A stretch of DNA of 64,000 bases. It comes from Acidobacteriota bacterium (GTDB lineage: Bacteria > Acidobacteriota > Vicinamibacteria > Vicinamibacterales > CAVVIG01). Below, piece after piece: positions 46,615-61,189 of the stretch. Position 1 is the stretch's first letter. Every line of letters starts with the position of its first letter. The position numbers and the translations under genes were made by a program. Below the pieces are notes generated by a model. That model ran no database searches and was not told where the DNA came from. It worked only from the letters and a program-made list of their open reading frames with translations. The DNA is taken from the NCBI GenBank assembly GCA_003222395.1, contig QHWB01000038.1:62001-126000 (forward strand), in the 5' to 3' direction.

Positions 46615-47001
46615 CTACACCTGTTGGGCGGAGGCCGCTTCCAGCCAGCGCTCGGCATCCTCGCGATTTCGAAACACGCTCGCCTTGTACCTCGACCCTT
46701 CGGCGATCGCTGCATACATTCGGGCGATGCCAACGCGCGTCTGGCTGGCCGCGACGAACCCGACCGGCCCTCGGGGGCCGTGCGCAGCCACGATCGCCGC
46801 GATGTGGACGACGATCGCGACGACATCGTCGGGCGACGGGATCCAGGTGACGAGCCGCGCATCGTGCAGCGAGCCGTAGGACCACGCCCCGTCACGAACC
46901 TGGCCGTCCAGCAGCGCGATCACGTCGGACAAGCCGACCGGATCGCGACCGACGATGGTGACGCGTTTGCGATCGTGTTCGATGTCGACGAAGTACGGCA
47001 T
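46615..47001 (-). CDS. Small STAS/SpoIIAA-like protein
   Basis: The 128-residue protein alternates strands and helices: VDIEHDRKRVTIVGRD, ARLVTWIPSPDDVVAIVVHIAAIV, VGFVAASQTRVGIARMYAAIA, and a C-terminal FRNREDAERWLEA helix. This pattern resembles STAS-like or SpoIIAA-like small regulatory proteins, but the match is only by fold impression. It has no signal peptide. It lies 54 bases after the exported kinase-fold gene on the same strand. Confidence 0.5.
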   Translation of the reverse strand: MPYFVDIEHDRKRVTIVGRDPVGLSDVIALLDGQVRDGAWSYGSLHDARLVTWIPSPDDVVAIVVHIAAIVAAHGPRGPVGFVAASQTRVGIARMYAAIAEGSRYKASVFRNREDAERWLEAASAQQV

Positions 47002-47055: not shown

Positions 47056-48723
47056 TTATGCCTCCGGCAGCCGGCCGACGCCGGCGAGGCGCCATTGGCC
47101 GTCGCCGTAGCGAAAGAAGACATCGATCGGCTTCTCCCACGATGGCAGCAGTGCACCGACGCCGCTCAATTGCACCTTCACGAATGCGCCGGCGCGGCGA
47201 GGCAGCCCGACCGGCGCCTCGATCCGGCTGGTCCTTCCAGACGTTTCGCCGATACGGTCGCTGGTCGCGGTCGCGTTGTCGAACCGGAACCACACGGCGC
47301 GGTAACCGCCCGGCGCCTTCGCGAAATCCGCATCGACGGCTGCGTTCCGGAACGTGAGCACTCCGTCGTCGTCGAGCGCCGGATCCACGATCGGATTGAT
47401 GGCCGTCAGGTAGGCGCGTCCGATCGCGTCGCGGCGTTCGGCGAGCGCCCGCGCCAGGAACGCTTCGGATTTCGGATCGCGGAAGTCGCCGGCGCGGATT
47501 GCGGCGCGCAGCAGGTCGGTCTTCAGCGTCATGAGCTTCCGCGCCGCCCAGAACTTGTCGTCGGCGCGCGCGTGGAGGAACGCCTGGTTCGGCACGCGCG
47601 GCTTCCAGAGATCCGGATTGAAATTCGTGTTGTCGTCGGGCAGCCTCCCGATGGACGGCGCTTCGTAGAACTTCGTCGTATGCCATTTCGGAAACGAGAA
47701 TCCGAACGACATCATCTGCCTGACCATGTCTCCCGGCTCGATCAGGTACTCGGACCCCTCCCAGAAGTCTGCCGGCGCGACGCCGGCGCTGCCGAGCGCC
47801 GATCCGAAGTCGAGGAGATGGTGGCGGACGAACGACCGGCCGTTCTCGGTGATCAGCGTGTCGAGCGAATTGATCGCCTTCGCGTCCGTGTGATTGAGCC
47901 AGGCGGCGAATACACCGTACGCACGCAGCTCGCGCCGGTGCTGGTGCGGGACGACGTCGTTGGGATCGTCCGGCCGCGTGTCGAAGAAGCGCATTCTTCC
48001 GATCGGCTTGCCCGGAAGCGCCTTGCTGGCCACGATGCGGTAGGCGCCGTCGGGTTCGCGATCGGCGCGCTCGAGCAGCGTGTCGAGGTCGTCGATCCGC
48101 ATCGGGCGACGCGTTCCTCCCGGCGGCGTGAACTTCGCGCCGTCGGCGATGACGAGCTGATCGCGCCGCATGTAGGCGATGTGGTTCTCGGGCACGTGAT
48201 AACCGAGCGCCCACATCAACTTCGTCACCGCCACCTCGGTGCCCGTCGCCATTCCCCGATACCCGGGCGGATCGAACTTCAGGAACCACAGCTGCCCCTT
48301 CGTGTCCTTGATCGTGAAGCCCGGCGTGACGCCGTCGCTCTTGGACGAGGTGACCGTCCACGTGCCGGGCTCGGGCCCGGGCGTCGTGTCGGGTCCGATG
48401 AACACGTCCTCGGGAGTCAGCGGTCGACGGCCCGCGCGGTTCGTGAACCAGCTCGAATCCGGAACCTCGCCGAGCGTGTTCACGTTCTGCGCGCGCGCAT
48501 CGCCCGCCGCGCTTCGCGCGAGCAGGTTCGTCGTCAGATCGACGATCAGGTCGACTTCCAGCGGCTTCATGCCCGACGCGTCCTCGGTGTCGCGCTCCTG
48601 CCAAATCGGGTCGTCCTCGTAGAAACGCGGCGACGCGGCTGAAGCGCCCATCGTCAGCGCGGCTGCAACGCCGAGCGCGCCGGCGACGATGACGGCGAGT
48701 CGTGATCGTTTCGTGGTGTTCAT
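47056..48723 (-). CDS. Exported protein with an atypical kinase-like fold (HipA/PI3K-like motifs)
   Basis: The protein (555 residues) has a signal peptide (RLAVIVAGALGVAAALTMGASAA). The mature part shows kinase-like motifs in the right order. Lys149 lies in QLWFLKFDP, placed like the ATP-binding Lys. H278-T-D280-A-K-A-I-N285 resembles the catalytic HxDxxxxN. Asp305 lies in LLDFGSALG like the metal-binding DFG. The spacing resembles HipA/PI3K-type and other atypical kinases rather than Hanks kinases. I do not recognise a named family. Kinase activity outside the cytoplasm would need exported nucleotide. The start at 48723 has AAAGGA upstream; the in-frame ATG at 48750 does not. It follows the transporter-barrel gene by 43 bases. 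Confidence 0.65.
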   Translation of the reverse strand: MNTTKRSRLAVIVAGALGVAAALTMGASAASPRFYEDDPIWQERDTEDASGMKPLEVDLIVDLTTNLLARSAAGDARAQNVNTLGEVPDSSWFTNRAGRRPLTPEDVFIGPDTTPGPEPGTWTVTSSKSDGVTPGFTIKDTKGQLWFLKFDPPGYRGMATGTEVAVTKLMWALGYHVPENHIAYMRRDQLVIADGAKFTPPGGTRRPMRIDDLDTLLERADREPDGAYRIVASKALPGKPIGRMRFFDTRPDDPNDVVPHQHRRELRAYGVFAAWLNHTDAKAINSLDTLITENGRSFVRHHLLDFGSALGSAGVAPADFWEGSEYLIEPGDMVRQMMSFGFSFPKWHTTKFYEAPSIGRLPDDNTNFNPDLWKPRVPNQAFLHARADDKFWAARKLMTLKTDLLRAAIRAGDFRDPKSEAFLARALAERRDAIGRAYLTAINPIVDPALDDDGVLTFRNAAVDADFAKAPGGYRAVWFRFDNATATSDRIGETSGRTSRIEAPVGLPRRAGAFVKVQLSGVGALLPSWEKPIDVFFRYGDGQWRLAGVGRLPEA

Positions 48724-48766
48724 AACAATCCTTTTGATGGCGGCGTTCATGAGAGCACGTCGTTCG

Positions 48767-51214
48767 TCAGAAGCTCGGGCTGAAGGAGAACGAGAGGCCC
48801 ATGCCTTCGCGCGTGCGGGCGAGCTCGATCCGCGTGACGGTTCTGTTCAGCGTGTGCAGCGTGAGGCCGATCCCGTACGACTTCTTCAGGTCGTGCAGAT
48901 CGAGGTCGCTGAACCTGGCGGCGACCTTGCCGGCGTCGGCGAACAGCGCCATGTCGACGAACGGTCCTGCGGTCCAGCGGTACTCACCCGTGAACAGCAG
49001 CCGGTTGCGATCGCGGAAGCGCCACGTCGAATATCCGCGAAGCGTGTGGCTGCCTCCGAGATCCGGCATCAGGAAATACGGCACGTCGTTTCCGTTCGAC
49101 GTCTCAGTCGAAGACGTGGCGGCGCGAAGCGCGATCACCCAGTTCTCGCGCAGGAGCGGGATGAACTGATCGACCTCTGCGTCGACGCGACGGAAGCTGT
49201 CGCGGCCTCCGCTCTTCGTGTCGTGATGGTCGGACCAGTCGAGGCGATAGAATCCGCCGCGCCTGGTATAGGAAGGCGAAGTACGCCAGTCGAGCTCGGC
49301 GAAGAGGCGGCTCCGCCGGTACGTCGGGTTCGCGTCGGTCGCGTCGACGGCGAGCATGTCGACGCCGCCGCCGACCGCGACGAACGGCGCCGCCTGGACG
49401 CGGACGGAGGCGCCGGCGGTCGCAGTGCGGTACGCGAAGTCGCCCCGGTGTCCGCTCGAATCGTTGCCGATGCCGTAGAACGGCACGTTCGGCGCGTCGA
49501 GCCAGTGACCGTACATCTGGATCGTGACGCGTTGGTTCGCGAACGCGGGCAGCGTGAACGACGCGTCTGCGACTTTGTAGTTCCTGATCGACCAGGCGGC
49601 GTGCGCGTCGAACCTGCCGGAGTCGGCAAAGCGCGCGCGATAGCCGGGACCAATGGCCAGCCCGCCGCCATCGAACGCGCTGCCAATGAATGCGTAGATC
49701 GGGCGCTCGGCGAGGAATGCGTTCTCGACCATCAGAATCCGCCGTTCGCTCGCGGTCGGCTCGTATGGATGGAGATGCGTCGCCTTTTCGGCGCGCTCGG
49801 CAGCGAGCTGCGCTTCGCGCGTGCCCTGCGCCGTTGCGGGCGCCGCGAGCGCGAGCACGGTGACCGCTGCGGCGGCTGCGGCCGCCCGGCGCATCTCTAC
49901 GCGCGGCAACGCGAGACGCCGACAGGCGATCCGCGCGGCAATGGTCAGCCAGGCCAGCGTCAGCGCGACGTTGACGCCCGCGAACTGCGCAACGCTCAAA
50001 TGCAGGATGGTGGTGCCGGAGTAGACCGCGGCCGCCGAGAGCACGTCGCCTCCGCGGACGAAGAACGTGTCGATGGCCTGCTTCGCCTTGTACTTCTCGT
50101 CTCGCGTGGTCGGCAGCCACAGCAGTTGGCGCGCGGTGTTCATGATCGAGTAATCCGTCGCGTTCTCGGCGGTCTTGATCCAGCGGACGAGCGAAAATCC
50201 GGCGCCGGCCGCGATGATCGAGTAGCCGCCGAGCGCGATGAGCGGCAGCGCGAGCAGCACGCCCGCGAGCCCTCTGTGCTTGACGAGGCGCGAGGCCACG
50301 AACGCCTGGAGCAGGAACGCCGTCACGTTGACCCAGAACTGATAGTCGCCGACGTACGCGCCGATGAAGGCCTGCCGGTTGAATGCCGGATCGAGCAGTG
50401 CCAGCTGTTTGACGTGATCGGTCAGCAGCCGTGAAATCAAGTACTCGCCGGTAGTGTTCACGACGTTGAGCAGAACGATCAGCGCGGCGATCATTCGCAG
50501 ATAGCTGCTGCTCAACACGAGCCGGAAGCCGCCGGACGAAGACATGGACGGTTGCGGCGCGGAGCTGTGACGTGAATCACGTGCGTTGATCCACACATAC
50601 AGCAGCACGCTCGCCGCCAGCAGCAGCGCCGAAAGCTGCAGGATGCTCTGCGGAGTGAAGCCCAGACGAAACAGGCGCGCCGATATGAACGACCCGAGCG
50701 GCGCGCCCGCCGTCATGCCGATCGCGATGATCGGGAACAGCCGACCGCCCGCTTCCTTGCTGTAGATGTCGTTGGCGAACGACCAGAACTGCGCGACGAG
50801 CGACATGTTGAAGATGCCGACCCAGATGAAGAACGCGACGCCGACGTACGGCACGCGTGCGGCGACCGCCGCCGCGAACAGCTCGATGCACACGACGAAG
50901 AACGTCGTGACGCCGACGAGCAGCCTGACGCGATCGACTCGCGACGCGAACCAGCCGTACATCGGCACGAATCCCATCAGCAGCAGCGCTTGTCCGGCTG
51001 CCGTATACGAGCGGACCTCGGCGCCGCCGCCGAGCAGGATCAGCGGCTCGCGCACGGTCTTGATGACGGAGTAGCAGACGAGCAGCACGAAGATGTTGAT
51101 CAGCATCAACACCGCCGTCGCGCCTTCGCCGGCACGGACGGCCGTGAAGAGCGACAGCGCACGATCCAGCGGCGACTTCTCGGAGCGGGTCGGGGTGATG
51201 CGAAGTCCGGGCAT
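48767..51214 (-). CDS. ATP/ADP-translocase-like transporter fused to an outer-membrane beta-barrel
   Basis: One open frame of 815 codons holds two proteins by content. Residues 1-440 are a 12-helix carrier of the Npt1/Npt2 (Tlc) nucleotide transporter type, with SVIKTVREPLILLGGG and LLWLPTTRDEKYKAKQ plus IDTFFVRGGD. Residues 441-815 begin with what looks like a signal peptide (MRRAAAAAAAVTVLALAAPATAQ) and continue as a BamA/TamA-like barrel (FYGIGNDSSGHRGDF, SHTLRGYSTWRFRDRNRLLFTGEYRW, ending SFSFSPSF). No stop separates them. Either it is a true inner-to-outer membrane fusion, or translation restarts at the ATG at 49894 and the stop has been lost by mutation or sequencing error. The start at 51214 is supported by GGAGAG upstream. 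Confidence 0.75.
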   Translation of the reverse strand: MPGLRITPTRSEKSPLDRALSLFTAVRAGEGATAVLMLINIFVLLVCYSVIKTVREPLILLGGGAEVRSYTAAGQALLLMGFVPMYGWFASRVDRVRLLVGVTTFFVVCIELFAAAVAARVPYVGVAFFIWVGIFNMSLVAQFWSFANDIYSKEAGGRLFPIIAIGMTAGAPLGSFISARLFRLGFTPQSILQLSALLLAASVLLYVWINARDSRHSSAPQPSMSSSGGFRLVLSSSYLRMIAALIVLLNVVNTTGEYLISRLLTDHVKQLALLDPAFNRQAFIGAYVGDYQFWVNVTAFLLQAFVASRLVKHRGLAGVLLALPLIALGGYSIIAAGAGFSLVRWIKTAENATDYSIMNTARQLLWLPTTRDEKYKAKQAIDTFFVRGGDVLSAAAVYSGTTILHLSVAQFAGVNVALTLAWLTIAARIACRRLALPRVEMRRAAAAAAAVTVLALAAPATAQGTREAQLAAERAEKATHLHPYEPTASERRILMVENAFLAERPIYAFIGSAFDGGGLAIGPGYRARFADSGRFDAHAAWSIRNYKVADASFTLPAFANQRVTIQMYGHWLDAPNVPFYGIGNDSSGHRGDFAYRTATAGASVRVQAAPFVAVGGGVDMLAVDATDANPTYRRSRLFAELDWRTSPSYTRRGGFYRLDWSDHHDTKSGGRDSFRRVDAEVDQFIPLLRENWVIALRAATSSTETSNGNDVPYFLMPDLGGSHTLRGYSTWRFRDRNRLLFTGEYRWTAGPFVDMALFADAGKVAARFSDLDLHDLKKSYGIGLTLHTLNRTVTRIELARTREGMGLSFSFSPSF

Positions 51215-51233
51215 TCTGGTCTCTCCTCGGACC

Positions 51234-51265
51234 GGTAACGCGCCAAGCGCGGCGAAACCCCGCAA
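51234..51265 (-). promoter_or_regulatory. Two-block leader motif, copy A
   Basis: On the minus strand, TTGCGGGGTTTCG, 11 other bases and GCGTTACC stand 19 bases before the transporter-barrel start. The same two blocks with the same 11-base spacing precede the second transporter (55350-55381). It looks like a promoter recognised by an alternative sigma factor or a shared operator. Confidence 0.55.
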
Positions 51266-51276
51266 TCGGCACGCCT

Positions 51277-51497
51277 CGCTCGGCTGAAAGCCTCGCGCTA
51301 CTGGGTGAGCGATGTGACGTTGGTAGCGCGAGCCTTTCAGGCGAGCGCGGCGACCCGCGTAGCGCGCGCCTTTCAGGCGAGCGTGGCGACCCGCCGCGTA
51401 GCGCGAGCCTTTCAGGCGAGCGTGGCGACCCGCCGCGTAGCGCGAGCCTTTCAGGCGAGCGTGGCGACCCGCGTAGCGCGAGCCTTTCAGGCGAGCG
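51277..51497. repeat. Hairpin-repeat array at the 3' end of a kinase gene
   Basis: One copy in the form CGCTCGGCTGAAAGCC-TCGCGCTAC (51277-51301) faces five copies of GTAGCGCGAGCCTTTCAGG-CGAGCG at 51322, 51359, 51398, 51437 and 51473, joined by TGGCGACCCGC-type linkers. The last copy contains the TGA stop codon of the kinase read on the minus strand. The core folds as GCCT-TTC-AGGC flanked by GA/GA mismatches and a CGC/GCG stem. Confidence 0.9.
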
Positions 51498-53097
51498 TGG
51501 CGACAGCGGCTGCTTCTGTGACGGTGAGCGGCGCGGTGAGCTCGACCAGGTGCCGTTCCCACCACGTTCTGGCCGATTCGTTGTCCCAGCGCTCGCGGGG
51601 ACGGCATCGGCCCAGCCAGTCGAGCACGGCTGCCGCGTCCTGCGGACGCCGGCGCGGATCCTTCTCGAGACACGCCAGCACGAGCGCCTCGAGCTCGGAG
51701 GGAATCGGCATCTCGGTCCGCTGTGACGGCGGGACCGGGGACGCCTGCAGGTGCAGGAGGAACATGTCGGCCGGGTTGTCGGCTTCGAACACCGGCTGTC
51801 CCGTCAGCACGTAATAGGCGACGCAGCCGATCGCGTACACGTCCGCGCGCTGATCGACTTCGCCGCCGAGCACGATTTCGGGCGCCATGAACGCGGGCGT
51901 TCCCGTCGTGCGGCCCGCCTCCGTCGATCGCGGCCCGAGCGACCGACCGCCGTCGCACGTCACCAGGCCGAAGTCGAGGACCTTGACGAAGTCGTAATCG
52001 AGGCCCATCCGGCAGATATAGATGTTCGACGGCGTCACGTCGCGGTGGACGAGCCCGCGAGCATGCGCCTCGCCGAGCGAATGACACACCTGCCGCAGCA
52101 GGAACAGCGCGCGCCCCGCTGAGACCGGTCCGAACTCCCGCACCAGCGACTGCAGGTCGCGGCCGGCGAGCAGCTCCATCACGTAATAGAACGTCTGGTC
52201 GGTCGTCACGCCGAAGTCGAATACCTGGATCGTGTGCGGCGAGCTCAGAGACGCCGTCGTCTGCGCCTCTTGCTCGAAGCGGCGGAGCATGGTCCGGGCC
52301 TCGGCCTCCGTGCCCGCGCCGAGCAGTTCGGGGCGTACGAGCTTGATCGCCGCGCCGCGTGCGAGCAACCGATGCCGCGCGCGCCAGACTTCGCCCATGC
52401 CGCCGCGCCCGAGCAGCTCCACGAGCTCGTAGCTGCCCATCTCCTGCGCGCGGCGCAGCCGGCGTCCGATCCGGTGCAGGACGTGCGACGGCAGCGTTGC
52501 GACGACGGCGCACGCAAAATTGGGCATGTAGAAGACGAGCGTGGTCGCCAGCGACGCTGACGGCGCGCCGCTCAAATGCACGATCGACGACGCGAGCGGA
52601 TCCATCGACGCCGCGGCCAGCGACGCGGCCAGCATCCTGCGCGGTGTCGCAGGCAGAATCATGGCGGCCACGAGAATCACGACCGTGTTCCACGACAAGC
52701 CGCGGCCGCTGCTGACCGCTGCAAGGCCTGTCAAGGTGTTGAGCAGCGCCACCGCGGCCGCGTTCAGCACCACATACAGCAGCCCGGCGTCTGTTTTCCG
52801 CGCGTACGCGTCCGGCGCGTACCGCGCGTAGACGAACATGATCAGCGAGACGGCGATCGCGACGGTCTCGACGACCAGGACGGGCCGCGGAATGGAAACG
52901 GCGATCGTGATCGGCCGGACGATCGCATCCATCGCCAGCCCGTAGGTCCACAAGCCCGCTCCGACGGCCGCGCACACCGCGAGCCGACGGATATGTTCGG
53001 AAACGAGCGCGTCTGGAAGCCGCTGCGACTCCCCCGAATCGGAAGTGTCCGGCGGCGGTGTGTCGAGGCGCGGTGCGAGGAGCTTCGGCGTGGCCAT
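51487..53097 (-). CDS. Membrane Ser/Thr protein kinase with N-terminal transmembrane domain
   Basis: The 536-residue protein has about six membrane segments in residues 35-205 and then a Hanks-type kinase: LGRGGMGEVWRA, Lys in AAIKLV, VHRDVTPSN, LDFGLVT and GTPAFMAPE with YAIGCVAYYVLTG. All catalytic residues are present. The membrane-first order is the reverse of PknB-type kinases, and no external sensor domain is visible. Its ATG is one base after the stop of the upstream transporter, so both belong to one operon. The last residues (VATLA) and the stop come from the hairpin-repeat array, so the C-terminus may have been trimmed or replaced by the repeat. Confidence 0.85.
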   Translation of the reverse strand: MATPKLLAPRLDTPPPDTSDSGESQRLPDALVSEHIRRLAVCAAVGAGLWTYGLAMDAIVRPITIAVSIPRPVLVVETVAIAVSLIMFVYARYAPDAYARKTDAGLLYVVLNAAAVALLNTLTGLAAVSSGRGLSWNTVVILVAAMILPATPRRMLAASLAAASMDPLASSIVHLSGAPSASLATTLVFYMPNFACAVVATLPSHVLHRIGRRLRRAQEMGSYELVELLGRGGMGEVWRARHRLLARGAAIKLVRPELLGAGTEAEARTMLRRFEQEAQTTASLSSPHTIQVFDFGVTTDQTFYYVMELLAGRDLQSLVREFGPVSAGRALFLLRQVCHSLGEAHARGLVHRDVTPSNIYICRMGLDYDFVKVLDFGLVTCDGGRSLGPRSTEAGRTTGTPAFMAPEIVLGGEVDQRADVYAIGCVAYYVLTGQPVFEADNPADMFLLHLQASPVPPSQRTEMPIPSELEALVLACLEKDPRRRPQDAAAVLDWLGRCRPRERWDNESARTWWERHLVELTAPLTVTEAAAVATLA

Positions 53098-53098
53098 A

Positions 53099-55327
53099 TC
53101 AAGACGCCGCTGAACCTGCGGACACCACCGAGGCGCGCAGCCGCAGTTCCTCGAGGTTCAGCATGATGGAATGGTTGGACCGCAGGAGCTCCGCCATGAC
53201 CTCGTCACGCGTACGGGCGGAACGCTTCACGGATCGGCGCTCGATGAATGGCCACAGCCGCCTTCGGATGGCCGGCGGCAGGACGCCTTCGAGGTATTCG
53301 AGCGCGGTGCCCTGCAGGTACTCGTCGTCGGTGTGAAGGCTCCGAAACGCGATCTGCAGCGGCTCGCGCGGGAGCACGAGCGACAGCAGGGTGAAGACGT
53401 GCGCGAGGCTCTCGCCCGCCCGGGTCCGAACGAACTCGTCGAGCGCCGAATGGCTGTCGCCCGCGTCGACCACGTCCAGCAGGCGACGGCTTTCCCACAC
53501 GCCTCGCCCCACGGCGACCTCGCGGAGTACGACGGCGAAGATCTGGTCGCGGTCGATCTCAACGCGGGGATTGCTGTCCACGATCGCCGCCAGCGATCGC
53601 GCCGATTGGTATCTGACATCGAAACGCAGATCGTCGAGCCCGAACATGAGACCGCTCGCGGCGCGCTGAGAGACGCACACCGAGAACACGCGTGCAAGCC
53701 GCCGCCTGACGGCAAAGTCCTGATTGGGATCGAGCAAGGCGTCGACGAGCTGACCGACGCGCTCTTCTGCGACCTTGCGGAGCGCAAACATCGCGTGATC
53801 GGCCACCTGATCCCACGCGAGCAACGTAATCGCGTGCGGCACGAGGCCCGGCGTCAGCCCCTCATCTCTCGAGAGGACTTCGACGACGCGGGCTCGATTG
53901 CGGGAGCGAAGGCTCAGCACGTCGCGCACTTCGGGCTCGAGCGAGACTGAATCGATCGCGGTGTGCCGAGCGTTCATCGCCTCTCTGGCTCCCGGGTCGA
54001 TCCGATCGCGTCTGATCAATCCGAGCAGTCGAGTGCCGGTGACCAGCGCCGCGTCCGACGGATCGATGCGGCTCGCGCGCTTCGAGAGATCGACGAGGCT
54101 GCTTGCCAGCGTACCGAGATAGCCTCGATTCAGCCGGCTCGCCGCGAGCACGGCGCCTGCCGAGCACAGCATCGCCAGCGAGAGAATGCCGGACGATTGC
54201 GACATTGGAGCGAGCAAGACGACCAATCGGACCAGTCCGCCGCCGACACCGTCGCCCAGACGGTCGAATCCGACGTCGATCAGCGTTTTGGCGGCGCGCT
54301 TCTCGTCAGCTGGAATCGGCGAGTAGAACAGTTCGTACCCGGCGCGAAAGAAGGAGCTGCGGAACACCGACTCGCCGCCTCGCGCGACGAGCACGCTGCC
54401 GAAGCCAGGCGCGACGAGACCGGCCAGGCTCCCGGCGAACAAGGCTCCGGACGGCGTCGCCGCCGACACGCCGAGCCCGAATCGCTCGAGGACGACGCGC
54501 GACGCCGACGTCTGAAGCGCGAACGCCAGCAGGCTCGTCGCGGCGTAATACAGCGCGAAAAAGCGCAGCAGGTTGTCGCCGCGCCCGAAAGTCTCGATCG
54601 ACTGTGCCTTGAACAGATAGTCGACGAGCGCCGCGCCGGTCGTGCCGAGCAGCACCAGCGCCGCGAGATTGCGCAGATAAGGCGCGTCACTCAACACGCG
54701 CAGCGCGGAGCGCGATGGCGCCGCGCTCGCTCGCTCGTCGGTCGATCCCATCCCTCCGGCGACCGCGGAGACGGCGGTCTGTCGCACGACCCACGCGCTC
54801 GCGAACTGCAGCAGGGCGAGCAGCGGAAGCATGAGCGGAGCGCCGAACGTGGCCGCAACGCGCTCGGTCGCCAGCGCGCTGATGAGTCCGCCCAGCGTGC
54901 CGGCCGCCGCGATGTGGCCGTAGCGCTTTTTCGCCGTTCGCGGGTCGAAACGCTCGCTCGCGATCAGCCAGAACCCGGACGCAAGCACCGGGCCCGCGCC
55001 GGAGATGTGAAGGTAGATGATGACCGCGGTCGTCGACGGCGCATGCGACCGGACGATCCATTCGATCAGAAACAGCGCGCCGCTGACCGCGAAGGATGCG
55101 GGCACCAGGGCGGCCGGCGCGATCCGACGGCCGGTTCTCGCGTTGGCAATGACGATCAGGATCGAACACAGCGAGGTCGCCATCAGCATCGCCGGCAACG
55201 CCGACAGGTCCAGCGACGTGAGGAACAGCGCGTCCCGCACCGCCTTTCCGCTGACGAACTGCGCTGTGACCGCCGCGGCGCCAATCATCGCCGGTACCAC
55301 CGACGGCGATGTGCCTTTCGTGTCCAT
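53099..55327 (-). CDS. ATP/ADP-translocase-like transporter with C-terminal HEAT repeats
   Basis: The 742-residue protein has a 12-helix carrier (residues 1-410) with the family features VSGKAVRDALFLTSL and YELFYSPIPADEKRAAKTLID plus GFDRLGDG. These match the Npt1/Npt2-type nucleotide transporters known from intracellular bacteria and plastids, and divergent copies occur in free-living bacteria. Residues from about 430 form HEAT-like helical pairs (ARVVEVLSRDEGLTP, VDALLDPNQDFAVRRRLARVF). The cargo could be ATP/ADP or another solute. GGGAG six bases before 55327 fixes the start; an upstream in-frame ATG at 55381 lacks one. It is paralogous to the transporter half of the 48767-51214 gene. Confidence 0.8.
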   Translation of the reverse strand: MDTKGTSPSVVPAMIGAAAVTAQFVSGKAVRDALFLTSLDLSALPAMLMATSLCSILIVIANARTGRRIAPAALVPASFAVSGALFLIEWIVRSHAPSTTAVIIYLHISGAGPVLASGFWLIASERFDPRTAKKRYGHIAAAGTLGGLISALATERVAATFGAPLMLPLLALLQFASAWVVRQTAVSAVAGGMGSTDERASAAPSRSALRVLSDAPYLRNLAALVLLGTTGAALVDYLFKAQSIETFGRGDNLLRFFALYYAATSLLAFALQTSASRVVLERFGLGVSAATPSGALFAGSLAGLVAPGFGSVLVARGGESVFRSSFFRAGYELFYSPIPADEKRAAKTLIDVGFDRLGDGVGGGLVRLVVLLAPMSQSSGILSLAMLCSAGAVLAASRLNRGYLGTLASSLVDLSKRASRIDPSDAALVTGTRLLGLIRRDRIDPGAREAMNARHTAIDSVSLEPEVRDVLSLRSRNRARVVEVLSRDEGLTPGLVPHAITLLAWDQVADHAMFALRKVAEERVGQLVDALLDPNQDFAVRRRLARVFSVCVSQRAASGLMFGLDDLRFDVRYQSARSLAAIVDSNPRVEIDRDQIFAVVLREVAVGRGVWESRRLLDVVDAGDSHSALDEFVRTRAGESLAHVFTLLSLVLPREPLQIAFRSLHTDDEYLQGTALEYLEGVLPPAIRRRLWPFIERRSVKRSARTRDEVMAELLRSNHSIMLNLEELRLRASVVSAGSAAS

Positions 55328-55349: not shown

Positions 55350-55381
55350 GGTAACGCGACGTACAGTCCGAAACCCCGCAA
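55350..55381 (-). promoter_or_regulatory. Two-block leader motif, copy B
   Basis: TTGCGGGGTTTCG, 11 bases and GCGTTACC on the minus strand, 22 bases before the transporter start. The two blocks are identical to copy A at 51234-51265, while the bases between them differ. Confidence 0.55.
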
Positions 55382-55447
55382 CTCCGGTTAAACTCGTTGA
55401 AACTAGACAGGAACGCGTCACCCGGCCGAGGACCCCGCAGGAGTGAG

Positions 55448-55984
55448 ATGCCGACCAAACGGCCGGAGGCTGCCGAGCTCTTCCCCGTGATCTACGGCGA
55501 GTTGCGCCGCGTGGCGGGCCGATATCTGTCCCGGGAGCGGCGCAACCACACGCTGCAGCCGACGGCGCTGGTGCATGAGGCGTGGTTGAAGCTGCAAAAC
55601 GAACGCAGCGTGCAGCTGCACGGCCGCACTCACGGCCTGGCGCTCGCGGCGCAGGCCATGCGGCGGCTGCTCGTCGATCACGGCCGGCATCAGAAACGCG
55701 ACAAACGCGGCGGCGGCGTTCAGCCAGTTGCGTTCGATGACCTCCTGAAAGCGGCGGCCACGGCGGCCGTGCCGGTCGAGGATCTGCTCACGCTCGAGGC
55801 GGCGCTCACGCGTCTGGAAGCCGAGGATCCGCGCGCGGCGCAGGTGGTCGTGCTGCGGTTCTTTTCAGGCATGTCGAGTCCCGAGGTCGCCGAGTATCTG
55901 CAGGTGTCGTTGCGGACCGTCGAGAGCGAGTGGACGTACGCCCGCGCGTGGCTCAAGCGCGAGCTGTCGGGAGAGAAGACGTGA
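55448..55984 (+). CDS. ECF-family RNA polymerase sigma factor
   Basis: The 178-residue protein fits the ECF sub-family common in Acidobacteria and Planctomycetes: region 2 as RVAGRYLSRERRNHTLQPTALVHEAWLKL and AMRRLLVDHGRHQKR, region 4 as VVVLRFFSGMSSPEVAEYLQVS followed by LRTVESEWTYARAWLKREL. No anti-sigma gene is beside it. Instead it ends 20 bases from a convergent kinase-TPR gene, a pairing often seen in these phyla. The start at 55448 has GGAG five bases upstream. It is divergent from the transporter operon. Confidence 0.87.
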   Translation: MPTKRPEAAELFPVIYGELRRVAGRYLSRERRNHTLQPTALVHEAWLKLQNERSVQLHGRTHGLALAAQAMRRLLVDHGRHQKRDKRGGGVQPVAFDDLLKAAATAAVPVEDLLTLEAALTRLEAEDPRAAQVVVLRFFSGMSSPEVAEYLQVSLRTVESEWTYARAWLKRELSGEKT

Positions 55985-56004: not shown

Positions 56005-58917
56005 CTAGCGGAGCAGCGCATACTCGCGGCGCGCTTCCCGCAGCGGTCGAAGATCTGAATCCGCATCGCGCCACAGGGCTAGGAAGCTTTCATAGGCCTT
56101 GCGTGCCTTCGCCGTTTCTCCAGCCAGCGCCGCCGCGCGACCGAGGCCGAGATGCGCCAACGGATACAGCGGCGAGTCCGGAGCCTCGCCGCGATGATTC
56201 ACGATGGTCTCGAACTGTGCGACAGCCTCCCTGGCATCCTTTAGCGTCAGGTATGCCTGGCCTCTGAGATACGCTGGCCAGAATTCCGCGCCTCGAGCAT
56301 GGTCGTAAGGCCTGACCGGCTCGAGTACCGCGAGTGCCCGCGCCGGCTCGCCCGCTTGAATGGCTGATGCAGCCACCGACAGTGGGATCTGGATCCGACT
56401 GGTAAGCGTCGCGCTTGGAAACCGATCGACCAGCTCGTTCGACAGCCTGGACGCCTCGGTGTCGGCGCCGCACATCGCCAGGACGCGAGCGCTTCGTTCC
56501 AGCGTCACGTTATCGCGGCTCAGCGCAATCGCGCCGGCGGTCTCGCGGCGGGCCTCGGCGCACTGGCCCATGAACGCGTGCGTCTCGGCGTCGGTGGTCG
56601 ACCATTCAGCCGCGGTTTCCGCAAGATCGGACTGCGTGGCCGTCAGGATCGCGAGGCGAAGGTGCTCGTGCGCGGCTCGGACGCGTCCGGCGAACGCAGA
56701 GACGCGCGCGTCCCAGCCGGACGTCGAAATTGCATCCGGCAGACGCCGGGCGGCGTCCAGCTCGCGTGCCATCGCCGCCGAATCCCCTTCGACGAATGCG
56801 ACGAGATACGCTAACCGCCGAAGGCTGACGAGGTCGGGCCGATGCGCACTCGCCTGCCGAACGACGTCCTTCGCCTCGTCGAGCCGATTGAGCGCCACGA
56901 ACGCCGACGCGAGATTTTCCAGCGGCGCGACGAAGGTTGGATCCAGACGCGCGGCTGTTCGAAACGGGTCGATGGCCTGGCCGTACTGACCGAACACATT
57001 GAACGCGACACCGAGGCTGTTGAACGCAAAGGCCTCCCGCGGATACGTCGACGTCCACGAGCGGGCCAGATCGATCGCCTTGTCCCAGTCCTGCGTTGCA
57101 TCGTGATAGTAGCGCCACGAAATGAAGAATCGCTCTCGCTCGCTCACTCTGTGGCGCAGATCGAACGCTCTGCGGGAGAACTCGGGCGCCAGCGCCGACC
57201 GGCGTGTGTTGGCGTAAACGCCCGACAGCAGCGCCTGCGCCAGGGCGAAGTCGGGGTCGAGATCGATCGCGCGCTTGAGATGCGGCACGGCTCCAACGCG
57301 GGCCACGAGTCTGTCGCGGTCGAGCGCGAGCGCGTAGGAATGCAGCGCCTCGAGCGACGATGTCGTGGCTCTCGGGAGCGGCACGTCGAATTTCTGTATC
57401 GACGCGAGCGACTCGCCCATTTTCTCGCGCAGCCGCGCGGCCGCCTTCCCCAGCGCCGCCAGAACCTGCTCCTTCTGCGTGACCTCGACCTGTTCGCGCG
57501 CCATCACGTCGGCCGTCTCGGAATTGATGGCCTCGAGCGCGATCACGTAATTGCGGCCCAGACCGCCGATCGACCCGGTCAGCAGCGCTTTCAGCCGTTC
57601 ACGCTGCGCGATCTCGCGTCCGATGGAGCGGGTGATGCGCTCGTCAGGCGAGCGGTTCATCAGGCGCAGCGCCTCGCGCACACGCTCGTCAGGAAAAACC
57701 TTGATGAACGGCGACTGCTCCAACGCGACCGCCAGCGCAACCTTGAGCGTGCCGTCGAACACCGCTTCTCCCGTGGTGTTCACGAAGTCCGCGAGCAGAA
57801 TCGTGTCCTGGCCGGTCAACGTGCCGGCGCCGCCGCCGATACCGAATGTCGACACGACGATGACGAGCGCGGCCGCCGCCGCCAGCGCCGCCGCGACGGG
57901 CCACAAACGGGATCGCGAGGCGACGGCCCTGGGGCGGGCTACGGCGAGGCTCGCGGCCATCGCGGCGGCCGACTCGGGACGCTCGCGCGGGTCCGGCAAC
58001 AGGGCTTGCATGATGACGCGTTCCAGTTGAGGGTCGACGCCCGGAACCGTCGTAGATGGCCACGGCAATTGGCCGCCGCCTTCTCGCTCGTACTTGCCGC
58101 GCGTCTCGCGTCCGACGAGGAGCTCGTACAGCAGCAGACCGAGCGCGTAGATGTCGGTCTTCTCCGAGATCAACGCTCCGCTCGCCAACTGTTCGGGTGC
58201 CATGTACCCCGGCGTCCCGACGCCGACGATGTGCCCCGTGTCTTCGTCGCGCGTGACGGCGATGCCGAAGTCGGTGATCCGCACCGAACCGTTCTCGTCG
58301 ATGAGCACGTTCGCGGGCTTCAGGTCGCGGTGCAGAATGCCCCGTGCGTGCGCCGCGGCCAGCGCCTCACACAACTGACGCCCGATGTCGGCGACCTTTT
58401 CAGATGGCAGCCGGCCGACGCGCTGGATGAGCGCGGCGAGATCTTCGCCCTGCACGAGCTCCATCGACAGGAATATCTGCCCCTGCTCCTCGCCGATGTC
58501 GAATACGCGGCACACGGACGGATGCGTGATTTGCCGCGCAAGACGAACCTCGTTCAGAAGCAGACGCCGCGCTTCCGCGCCGGTCGAGCGCACCAGCTTG
58601 AGCGCGACCGGAATTCCGAGCACGAGATCGTCGGCGCGCCAGACATCTCCCATGCCGCCGTGGCCCAGACGCGTCACCATCCGGTAGCGGCGGGCGAACA
58701 TCTCGCCCGGCGCGAACAGCTCGGTCGCGGAATCGAGTGAAGACGGCTCGCTGTCAGCACGCTCGTACTGGTCGTGCGCGGCGAGCAGCGACTCGACGTC
58801 GACCCGCAGCTCCGCGTTGTCGCCGCAGGCCGTCTCGACGAACTCCTGCCGCTCGGCCGGCGGACGGCTCAACGCCGCGAGAAAAAGCTCTTTCGAGCGA
58901 GCGTTGGCTGGCGCCAT
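56005..58917 (-). CDS. Ser/Thr protein kinase with transmembrane segment and TPR tail
   Basis: The 970-residue protein has an N-terminal helical region with an ELRVDVESLLAAH motif, then a Hanks-type kinase from about residue 78: LGHGGMGDVWRA, ALKLVRS, LHRDLKPAN, TDFGIAV and GTPGYMAPE. One membrane helix follows (LWPVAAALAAAAALVIVVS). The outer part has a FlgO-like region (LLADFVNTTGEAVFDGTL) and then TPR repeats to the end. This is the common architecture of acidobacterial sensor kinases whose periplasmic part detects an unknown signal. All catalytic motifs are intact. The 331-base gap upstream holds the paired-box repeat. Confidence 0.88.
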   Translation of the reverse strand: MAPANARSKELFLAALSRPPAERQEFVETACGDNAELRVDVESLLAAHDQYERADSEPSSLDSATELFAPGEMFARRYRMVTRLGHGGMGDVWRADDLVLGIPVALKLVRSTGAEARRLLLNEVRLARQITHPSVCRVFDIGEEQGQIFLSMELVQGEDLAALIQRVGRLPSEKVADIGRQLCEALAAAHARGILHRDLKPANVLIDENGSVRITDFGIAVTRDEDTGHIVGVGTPGYMAPEQLASGALISEKTDIYALGLLLYELLVGRETRGKYEREGGGQLPWPSTTVPGVDPQLERVIMQALLPDPRERPESAAAMAASLAVARPRAVASRSRLWPVAAALAAAAALVIVVSTFGIGGGAGTLTGQDTILLADFVNTTGEAVFDGTLKVALAVALEQSPFIKVFPDERVREALRLMNRSPDERITRSIGREIAQRERLKALLTGSIGGLGRNYVIALEAINSETADVMAREQVEVTQKEQVLAALGKAAARLREKMGESLASIQKFDVPLPRATTSSLEALHSYALALDRDRLVARVGAVPHLKRAIDLDPDFALAQALLSGVYANTRRSALAPEFSRRAFDLRHRVSERERFFISWRYYHDATQDWDKAIDLARSWTSTYPREAFAFNSLGVAFNVFGQYGQAIDPFRTAARLDPTFVAPLENLASAFVALNRLDEAKDVVRQASAHRPDLVSLRRLAYLVAFVEGDSAAMARELDAARRLPDAISTSGWDARVSAFAGRVRAAHEHLRLAILTATQSDLAETAAEWSTTDAETHAFMGQCAEARRETAGAIALSRDNVTLERSARVLAMCGADTEASRLSNELVDRFPSATLTSRIQIPLSVAASAIQAGEPARALAVLEPVRPYDHARGAEFWPAYLRGQAYLTLKDAREAVAQFETIVNHRGEAPDSPLYPLAHLGLGRAAALAGETAKARKAYESFLALWRDADSDLRPLREARREYALLR

Positions 58918-60775: not shown

Positions 60776-61189
60776 TCAGGGGATGATATCGATGGTGTAG
60801 TGGCGGTGCCCGCGGCGGACGCGGTAAGCTTCGAAGTCCTTGCGGTCGACCGTGAAGACTTTGCGGCTCCCGAGTGTTTCAGCCGCGACAATCAGCGACG
60901 CGTCCGCGAGATCCATGGGATGGTCCGAGTCCATGTCCATCAGTTCGAAGGCGCGCGGCAATGTGGCCGAGTCGAACCACCACACCGACAGTCCTCCCTT
61001 CAACACGAATTCCCTCAAGCGATCCGATCCCACGCTTCCTGGCCCAAGCATGTGGAAGGCTTCCGTCAGCACCGGCACCGTCGTTCGGATCGGCTCCCGC
61101 ACGAGTTTGAGTGCCTTGGCGCACCGTTGATGTTGACCATCTTTGGGATCGAACAATGCGACGAGCGGGCCGGTATCGACAAGGATCAT
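60776..61189 (-). CDS. vapC: PIN-domain ribonuclease toxin, VapC-like
   Basis: The 137-residue protein is a PIN domain with the expected acidic residues: Asp5 in MILVDTGPL, Glu in VLTEAFHML, Asp in MDLADASL and Asp in FTVDRKDF. VapC toxins cleave tRNA or rRNA when freed from the antitoxin. Its ATG overlaps the stop of the upstream ribbon-helix-helix gene by four bases, the standard vapBC order. Family assignment by sequence is firm; the RNA target is not known. Confidence 0.87.
   Translation of the reverse strand: MILVDTGPLVALFDPKDGQHQRCAKALKLVREPIRTTVPVLTEAFHMLGPGSVGSDRLREFVLKGGLSVWWFDSATLPRAFELMDMDSDHPMDLADASLIVAAETLGSRKVFTVDRKDFEAYRVRRGHRHYTIDIIP

Follow-up and report, generated by a model that had tools for sequence, protein, structure and literature searches.

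A predicted exported protein with a kinase fold and a putative outer-membrane barrel of the Omp85 type, devoid of POTRA domains, are encoded side by side across the phylum Acidobacteriota. Judging from gene neighbourhoods, NTT carriers, a membrane Ser/Thr kinase and an apparently exported phosphatase of the PAP2 or metallophosphatase type accompany this pair far above chance (as tested for the NTT and PAP2 genes). In the lineage of the window, which is the whole stretch of 64,000 nucleotides analysed, one carrier and the barrel appear as a single reading frame. These genes almost certainly constitute a conserved functional module. The most far-reaching interpretation, with a probability of about 0.38, is an ATP-fed phosphorylation in the periplasm or at the outer membrane: NTT carriers would pass nucleotide out, an exported Fam20/HipA-like kinase would use it on an envelope target, exported phosphatases would reverse the reaction and, in one lineage, a polyprotein would be split by signal peptidase to give equal numbers of carrier and barrel. 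No published description of such a system was found in the literature searched, which excluded most subscription journals.

Organization of the locus

The first-pass annotation had described a co-directed cluster of four genes, and this cluster is indeed present, with all genes on the minus strand and its coordinates unchanged. A fifth component, the Omp85-type barrel, was absent from that reading, as were the carrier-barrel fusion and the phosphatases. A chance grouping of the cluster was excluded because the gene set is conserved in other genomes.

The membrane Ser/Thr kinase listed in the annotation was readily recognized at positions 51,487-53,097 (minus strand; Pkinase E = 7e-38). Some six or seven hydrophobic helices occupy residues ~39-201 of the protein, ahead of the Pkinase domain (residues 223-486), and a basic stretch, HRIGRRLRR, comes after the last transmembrane helix. 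The kinase domain is most likely cytoplasmic according to this predicted topology, and for this reason the protein is regarded as a putative regulator and not as the envelope kinase. The latter role was rejected on the predicted topology and the position of HRIGRRLRR.

The exported kinase-fold protein

The exported protein (564 residues; 47,056-48,750, minus strand) displays a signal segment at residues ~14-38 and no other transmembrane segment in the window copy. An N-terminal hydrophobic segment, again with no other transmembrane segment, was observed in 39 of 40 members of the family, and the enzyme is very likely exported. No relative with a meaningful E-value was detected in Pfam, NCBIfam or the PDB sequences, the best Pfam match being HipA_C with E = 0.28. 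Since the sequence family look-ups were empty, the protein was placed among the kinases by structure search alone. The AlphaFold model is of high confidence (pLDDT 91), and the search returned CtkA (Z 14.8), Fam20C (14.0), PI4KII (13), CotH (12.5) and HipA (11.4), with rmsd values of 3.6-4.3 over 215-256 residues. The kinase domain spans residues 123-450 (47,401-48,384, minus strand) and includes K137, K158, E172, D289, N294 and the motif D314-F-G. It is followed by an Ig/FN3-like C-terminal domain (residues 451-555; 47,086-47,400, minus strand), which in VIA-align matched FN3/cytokine-receptor modules with Z 7-8, a similarity of common fold only.

The catalytic residues are nearly invariant in the family: D289 is found in 75 of 77 members, while N294 and the DFG aspartate D314 are found in all 77, and K137 is almost invariant as well. 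As modelled, the kinase fold is genuine and its catalytic residues are conserved, and the description of the protein as an exported kinase-fold protein in the first-pass annotation stands. The beta-3 lysine (K158 in the window) is more variable, being Lys in 50 of 77 members and Glu, Ser, Gln or Thr in the other 27; the alpha-C glutamate (E172) is Glu in 56 of 77. The window protein keeps both. In WNK kinases another lysine replaces the beta-3 lysine, and by analogy K137 could stand in for it here. A link between loss of the beta-3 lysine and loss of the carrier was rejected, as an NTT neighbour was present in 17 of the 27 members lacking the lysine vs 23 of the 50 having it. There is a good probability that catalysis by the exported enzyme is ATP-dependent.

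The NTT-type carriers

The first carrier, termed NTT-HEAT, is encoded at 53,099-55,327 (minus strand). The listed open reading frame starts from a TTG at 55,381; the ATG at 55,327 is the likelier start and yields a protein of 742 residues. It scores 25.2 bits with Pfam TLC (cut-off of 21 bits for both carriers), and its profile A3 matches AtNTT1 (9j3j) with E = 6e-15. Positions ~495-587 of the same profile match alpha/HEAT-repeat proteins, pointing to a HEAT-type C-terminal tail. The second carrier, NTT2, forms the 12-helix, MFS-like domain of the fused chain (residues 1-440; 49,895-51,214, minus strand; TLC 46.8 bits). Its profile A2 matches Npt1 (9j3n, E = 4e-20) and AtNTT1 (E = 6e-14), and the fold of its model superimposes on AtNTT1 with Z 36.0 and rmsd 2.5 Å over 411 residues, the next match being a generic MFS protein with Z 29.5. 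Both carriers are members of the NTT family, and no further gene of this family was found in the 7.74 Mb genome.

The ATP/ADP exchange of AtNTT1 depends on an essential charged quartet, K155, E245, E385 and K527 (numbering of PMC3306366 and PMC10654386). In the alignment to AtNTT1, the equivalents of E245 and K527 are missing from both carriers, and those of K155 and E385 are partly kept at best. In case of NTT2, the E245 position is occupied by G133 and the K527 position falls in a gap beside RxGD. The K155 position is ambiguous, corresponding to Ala72 without gaps or, with a small gap, to the always-basic position 68. The KxKxKxAID segment and a basic motif in TM1 are retained in NTT2. In NTT-HEAT (760-residue reading frame numbering), Asp377 and Asp254 are found at the K527 and E385 positions, respectively, and E245 is lost. 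Because the E245 and K527 equivalents are missing, the carriers were not classed as canonical ATP/ADP exchangers; this assignment was rejected for either of them, at least two of the four essential charged residues being lost. Of the earlier term "ATP/ADP-translocase-like", the family membership holds by profile, and for NTT2 also by fold, but the essential E245 and K527 equivalents that the exchange would call for do not.

The outer-membrane barrel and its fusion to a carrier

NTT2, an internal signal peptide and the barrel are encoded by a single open reading frame of 815 residues (48,767-51,214, minus strand). The predicted signal peptide, MRRAAAAAAAVTVLALAAPATA, covers residues 441-462 (49,829-49,894, minus strand), with cleavage expected before Q463. 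The mature barrel (48,767-49,828, minus strand) belongs to the Omp85 superfamily, with 34.9 bits for Pfam Omp85 (cut-off 24) and E = 1e-19 for NF047779. Its model shows 16 strands at residues 506-810 of the fused chain and resembles TamA (Z 27) and BamA (Z 26). The LRGY loop motif is conserved, with Arg286 present in 40 of 41 sequences. No POTRA domain was found in the barrel model, where a short helical stretch is all that comes before the first strand, and the missing N-terminal POTRA excludes an identification as BamA, TamA or TpsB. The barrel is therefore like the Omp85 superfamily barrels (TamA, BamA, patatin-type) in strand number, loop motif and structure scores, and differs from them in lacking POTRA and in that one lineage produces it as a C-terminal extension of an inner-membrane carrier.

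No stop codon separates the two domains in the window or in L032-L036, i.e. in six genomes, and the barrel's signal peptide is retained inside the fused frame in the window and its five relatives. The length of the junction varies among the six genomes with the reading frame preserved. Carrier and barrel are separate genes in L037, L050, L069, L080-L082, L085 and L111, and a junction consisting of AxA-Q followed by TR is common to fused and unfused barrels. When the whole fused chain was modelled, pLDDT was 89.8, with a low-confidence linker at residues 437-464. The fusion is very probably real. Cleavage of the chain is likely, and the reading frame probably encodes a polyprotein of inner-membrane carrier and outer-membrane barrel that would be cut by signal peptidase.

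Conservation of the gene set

Conservation across genomes was the first check proposed in the first-pass annotation, and the genes were found to be co-conserved. An NTT gene lies within 5 kb in 29 of 112 exported-kinase loci vs ~0.35 expected, i.e. about 80 times the expectation (class-wide figures, with shared ancestry not fully corrected). By genome, NTT genes are present in 75 of 81 genomes with the exported kinase and in 33 of 112 without it, where shared ancestry is likewise not fully corrected; several of the six genomes having the kinase and no NTT found are incomplete. Most of the genomes compared are draft metagenome assemblies. On the tree of the exported enzyme, built from a set enriched for NTT loci (39 with an NTT gene within 5 kb, 37 with adequate flank and none), the presence or absence of an adjacent NTT gene switches at least 13 times. 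A carrier close by is not required, because many exported-kinase loci with enough flank have none within 5 kb.

The barrel is the most constant partner of the exported kinase, adjoining it at 40 of 40 loci in a first set and 76 of 80 in a second. The full five-gene set occurs in several families in reshuffled order, some of these neighbourhoods having been chosen for an NTT already seen. In the cultured soil strain Edaphobacter aggregans DSM 19364, which belongs to a different class (Terriglobia), all five gene families are present at two loci, and the exported kinase and the carriers sit together.

A PAP2 phosphatase, apparently exported, was found within 3 kb at 22 of 101 exported-kinase loci, and in 20 of these 22 cases it lies downstream on the same strand. 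The background was taken from 21 genomes, most of which contain 0-4 PAP2 genes. In the window's own locus no PAP2 gene is found beside the exported kinase. A metallophosphatase, apparently exported as well, is present at 6 loci and a second exported kinase-fold gene at 5, numbers too few for statistics.

Proposed mechanism and alternatives

In the favoured mechanism, the carrier part of the fused chain would insert in the inner membrane, and signal peptidase I would cut the internal signal peptide, setting the barrel free to enter the outer membrane. The NTT carriers would move ATP or a related nucleotide from the cytoplasm to the periplasm and return the spent nucleotide. The exported enzyme would use the nucleotide to phosphorylate a protein, lipid or glycan of the envelope, a phosphatase would reverse or trim this phosphorylation, and the membrane kinase would regulate the system from the cytoplasm. 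An envelope phosphoryl-transfer module as such has good support. That the locus is such a module with nucleotide passed out by NTT carriers is given even chances, and the more specific claim that the carriers supply the nucleotide of the exported enzyme, made from gene context and sequence, even chances at best. The earlier proposal that the carriers feed an envelope kinase thus survives in part: co-conservation and the kinase fold speak for it, and the missing E245 and K527 equivalents, the likely cytoplasmic membrane kinase and the dispensable local carrier against it.

The missing carrier residues could mean that the solute is a different one (NAD, a nucleotide-sugar or some phosphorylated product generated outside) and that the phosphate donor comes from elsewhere, be it leaked or environmental ATP or another phospho-donor. 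PamNTT4, which lies outside the canonical NTT clade, is a carrier of NAD, and ATP has been reported at micromolar levels in the periplasm of E. coli without any translocase (PMC7432876); the many enzyme loci without a nearby NTT gene also fit. Against this stand the fold of NTT2, which is closer to AtNTT1 than to generic MFS proteins, its retained basic TM1 motif and KxKxKxAID segment and the excess of NTT genes at the enzyme loci, and this alternative is considered rather unlikely. A different role for the barrel, as a secretion pore or assembly factor that delivers the exported enzyme to the cell surface, would place phosphorylation on or outside the cell. Such a role agrees with the near-obligate pairing of enzyme and barrel and with the TamA/BamA type of the latter; two-partner secretion pores, however, bind their cargo through a POTRA domain, which the barrel model lacks, and the enzyme has no recognisable anchor, making this explanation unlikely.

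Slightly less likely still is that the exported protein does not transfer phosphate and is a pseudokinase or an enzyme of another reaction (AMPylation, glutamylation), serving as a scaffold or as a partner to the barrel. The replaced beta-3 lysine in 27 members would suit this, as would the weak appearance in the Foldseek list of SidJ, a kinase fold that glutamylates; yet the catalytic Asp and Asn, the DFG aspartate and K137 are almost invariant, K158 and E172 are both retained in the window protein, and phosphatases adjoin the enzyme. Finally, with most genomes being draft metagenome assemblies, an assembly artefact or chance could be invoked for the fusion or the gene grouping. This is scarcely credible: for the fusion it was ruled out by the presence of the same fusion in six genomes that differ in junction length, and for the grouping the 29 co-locations vs 0.35 expected and the same gene families in the named Edaphobacter strain argue against it.

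Relation to known systems

The recurring gene set suggests nucleotide-fed phosphate chemistry, in soil Acidobacteriota, in a compartment thought to lack nucleotides. A close parallel is that of the eukaryotic Fam20 secretory-pathway kinases, e.g. the Golgi casein kinase Fam20C, which share with the exported protein the fold, the catalytic Asp and the DFG-type Asp, and which also act in a non-cytosolic compartment needing delivered ATP. The similarity is remote (11-14% identity), and membership of the Fam20 family proper was rejected, there being no Pfam Fam20C match over cut-off. Further differences are the bacterial envelope in place of the Golgi, the extra Ig/FN3-like domain, the near-obligate barrel partner and a beta-3 Lys that is not universal. 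The HipA/CtkA/CotH/PI4K-II superfamily shares the fold (Z 11-15) and, as in HipA-type kinases, a D-x4-N catalytic loop. HipA, unlike the exported enzyme, is a cytoplasmic toxin and CotH acts on spore coats, and we know of no member of this superfamily that is accompanied by an outer-membrane barrel or by NTT carriers. Phosphate is also transferred outside the cytoplasm by LpxT, a periplasmic PAP2-family enzyme without kinase fold that takes phosphate from undecaprenyl pyrophosphate. The present locus resembles that system in the site of transfer and the PAP2-family enzyme, and differs from it in its kinase-fold enzyme and nucleotide-type carriers.

The carriers resemble AtNTT1, Chlamydia Npt1 and NTT-HEAT fusions in profile and fold, and depart from known NTT carriers in the missing E245 and K527 equivalents, the exported-kinase gene context and the in-frame barrel fusion. 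NTT-HEAT fusions have already been described in free-living bacteria (PMC5381601), and the carrier-barrel fusion is not among the architectures in the part of that source consulted. For the NTT and NTT-HEAT proteins of such bacteria, so far unexplained, the locus offers a concrete context, and the question of nucleotide supply can now be put to the test with named genes, some of them in a cultured strain.

The carrier-barrel reading frame matters independently of the ATP question. To our knowledge, there is no precedent for a single frame joining an inner-membrane carrier and an outer-membrane barrel that is conserved across genera. The cytochrome b/c1 precursor of Bradyrhizobium, a polyprotein cut by signal peptidase, has the same order of inner-membrane protein, internal signal peptide and exported protein; in the fused frame, the first part is instead a solute carrier and the part predicted to be released is an outer-membrane barrel.

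Organization of the cluster

The cluster at 47056-55327 is best read as a module for phosphoryl transfer in the envelope, equipped with nucleotide-type carriers. Four co-directed genes were found on the minus strand: at 55327..53099 a carrier of the NTT family with a HEAT-repeat tail (NTT-HEAT), at 53097..51487 a membrane Ser/Thr kinase, from 51214 onwards another NTT-family carrier (NTT2), and at 48750..47056 a protein that carries a signal segment and kinase-like motifs (here called the exported enzyme). The first-pass annotation had described this content and its coordinates correctly; it overlooked that the NTT2 frame continues without a stop codon to 48767, and that an outer-membrane barrel makes up the C-terminal half of this ORF (Pfam Omp85, 34.9 bits; NF047779, E = 1e-19). 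No NTT-family gene other than NTT-HEAT and NTT2 was found in the 7.74 Mb genome.

A direct repeat of 39 bp (4.9 copies, 51323-51504) spans the end of the membrane-kinase gene and the region upstream of NTT2. Its core, GCGAGCCTTTCAGGC, was found again at 1875 and 1899, and the repeat resembles an element of the REP type. An ECF-type sigma factor is predicted at 55397-55984 (plus strand), divergent from the cluster, and a TPR-repeat Ser/Thr kinase lies at 56005-58917 (minus strand). Both adjoin the cluster in several relatives (loci L032-L036, in part) and are possibly its regulators. At 60776-61189 (minus strand), a protein beginning MILVDTGPLVALFD reads like a putative PIN-domain toxin.

The exported enzyme

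Searches of Pfam, NCBIfam and PDB sequences gave no family covering the window's exported enzyme. Its AlphaFold model, built on 40 sequences, reached a pLDDT of 91. Residues 123-450 matched CtkA (Z 14.8), Fam20C (14.0), PI4K-II (about 13), CotH (12.5) and HipA (11.4), while residues 451-555 formed an Ig/FN3-type domain (Z 7-8), which indicates a common fold only. Catalytic-type residues were well kept among 77 sequences: N294 and D314 (of DFG) in all 77 and D289 in 75. The beta-3 lysine, K158, is less constant: the window protein has it, but no more than 50/77 sequences do. K137 of the first strand region, which 75/77 share, may stand in for it, by analogy with WNK kinases. An N-terminal hydrophobic segment was detected in 39 of 40 relatives by a simple hydrophobicity test rather than a trained predictor, a second such segment in none of the 40 and a lipobox-like motif in one.

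In the clade of L055, L064, L053 and relatives, DVG replaces DFG, and Ser or Gln replaces the beta-3 lysine; its chemistry may be different. The window's own genome also holds a shorter relative (L173 4470-5579, contig C94; 369-aa ORF) with the motifs SVKF, SDLKNSNN and RDLGTALGE, and short matches of this kind are present in many genomes of the phylum.

The carriers and the fused barrel

The carriers had been proposed to be ATP/ADP-translocase-like and to feed an envelope kinase. Profile searches upheld membership of the NTT family for both. The reference ATP/ADP carrier AtNTT1 requires the charged residues K155, E245, E385 and K527 (PMC3306366, PMC10654386). The printed alignments were used to derive an offset of 84 between full-length AtNTT1 and chain 9j3j; on them K71, E161, E301 and K443 fit all four residues. 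With this numbering, E245 and K527 are absent from both carriers. NTT-HEAT also lacks K155, which is ambiguous in NTT2, and has Asp at the E385 position. Therefore, ATP/ADP exchange cannot be assumed. NAD is carried by one NTT outside the characterised clade.

Carrier and barrel share a single stop-free frame in the window and in five relatives, L032-L036 (71-85% carrier identity), and are separate genes in L037, L050, L069, L080-L082, L085 and L111. The fusion junction retains a segment that resembles a signal peptide and closes with AxA or a similar motif, Q and TR being next in the chain; this Q-TR start of the mature barrel is common to fused and unfused copies, and junction spacing among fused copies differs by whole codons only. 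Signal peptidase I most likely cuts the fused chain. The whole-chain model comprises a 12-helix carrier, a low-confidence linker (437-464) and 16 strands. Its carrier part matched AtNTT1 with Z 36, against 29.5 for the next generic carrier, and its barrel part matched TamA and BamA (Z 26-27).

Conservation of the gene set

The exported enzyme was detected in 100/193 genomes of the class (E ≤ 0.001, matches to short paralogues included) and occurs across many of the phylum's families. Scanning 84,980 species yielded 370 relatives, of which 80 were kept, nearly all titled Acidobacteria. The barrel adjoins the enzyme in 40/40 loci of a first set and in 76/80 of a second, partly overlapping one, the exceptions being mostly at contig ends. 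An NTT gene lies within 5 kb of the enzyme in 29/112 loci of the class, against about 0.35 expected from random placement in a 5 Mb genome. NTT genes occur in 75/81 genomes having the enzyme versus 33/112 without it (Fisher p = 5e-20, uncorrected for ancestry). A tree of 77 enzymes calls for a minimum of 13 changes in whether an NTT gene is adjacent; the NTT proportion on this tree is inflated, since some loci were fetched because an NTT had already been seen there, and 29/112 gives the fairer estimate.

The arrangement of the full set differs between loci. In the window's family and in L081 and L082, NTT-HEAT, membrane kinase, NTT2, barrel and enzyme run in one direction. In L073, L075, L077-L079 and L084, and in L074, whose contig begins within the enzyme, the barrel, enzyme and NTT2 face NTT-HEAT and the membrane kinase. 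The cultured Edaphobacter aggregans DSM 19364, from a different class, carries in one run NTT2, a second NTT-like carrier, the barrel, the enzyme and a metallophosphatase whose leader is of the twin-arginine type. This additional carrier (L178 10416-11705), the third of NTT type in the strain, sits between NTT2 and the barrel, has no HEAT repeats and scored 16.6 bits for TLC, below the cut-off. The membrane kinase and NTT-HEAT are at another locus.

Each part of the set is a member of a known superfamily, and NTT-HEAT proteins of free-living bacteria are already known, with no function assigned (PMC5381601). In the openly available literature, neither the gene set as a system nor a fusion between an inner-membrane carrier and an outer-membrane barrel was found described. 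The function of the set is inferred. The proposed module would work like the Golgi Fam20 kinases, which act in the lumen and need an ATP supply.

Neighbouring phosphatases

In 22/101 loci a PAP2-family gene lies no more than 3 kb from the enzyme (for example, L034 14707-15606), in 20 of the 22 downstream on the same strand, and a signal segment was present in those of its sequences that were inspected. In most of the 21 genomes that were searched, PAP2 genes number 0-4 (15 in one), so by our own arithmetic the expectation would be roughly 0.2-0.4 such neighbours. Less frequent neighbours were a metallophosphatase (6 loci; L061 7328-8398) and a second exported kinase-fold protein (5 loci; L055 14780-15616) with weak Pfam matches to PI3/PI4 kinase, HipA_2 and Fam20C. 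The PAP2 gene is present in the window's closest relatives and absent beside the window's own copy. Immediately downstream of the enzyme gene, the window encodes a 128-aa protein (46615-47001, minus strand) that has no assigned family and occupies the position of the relatives' PAP2 gene.
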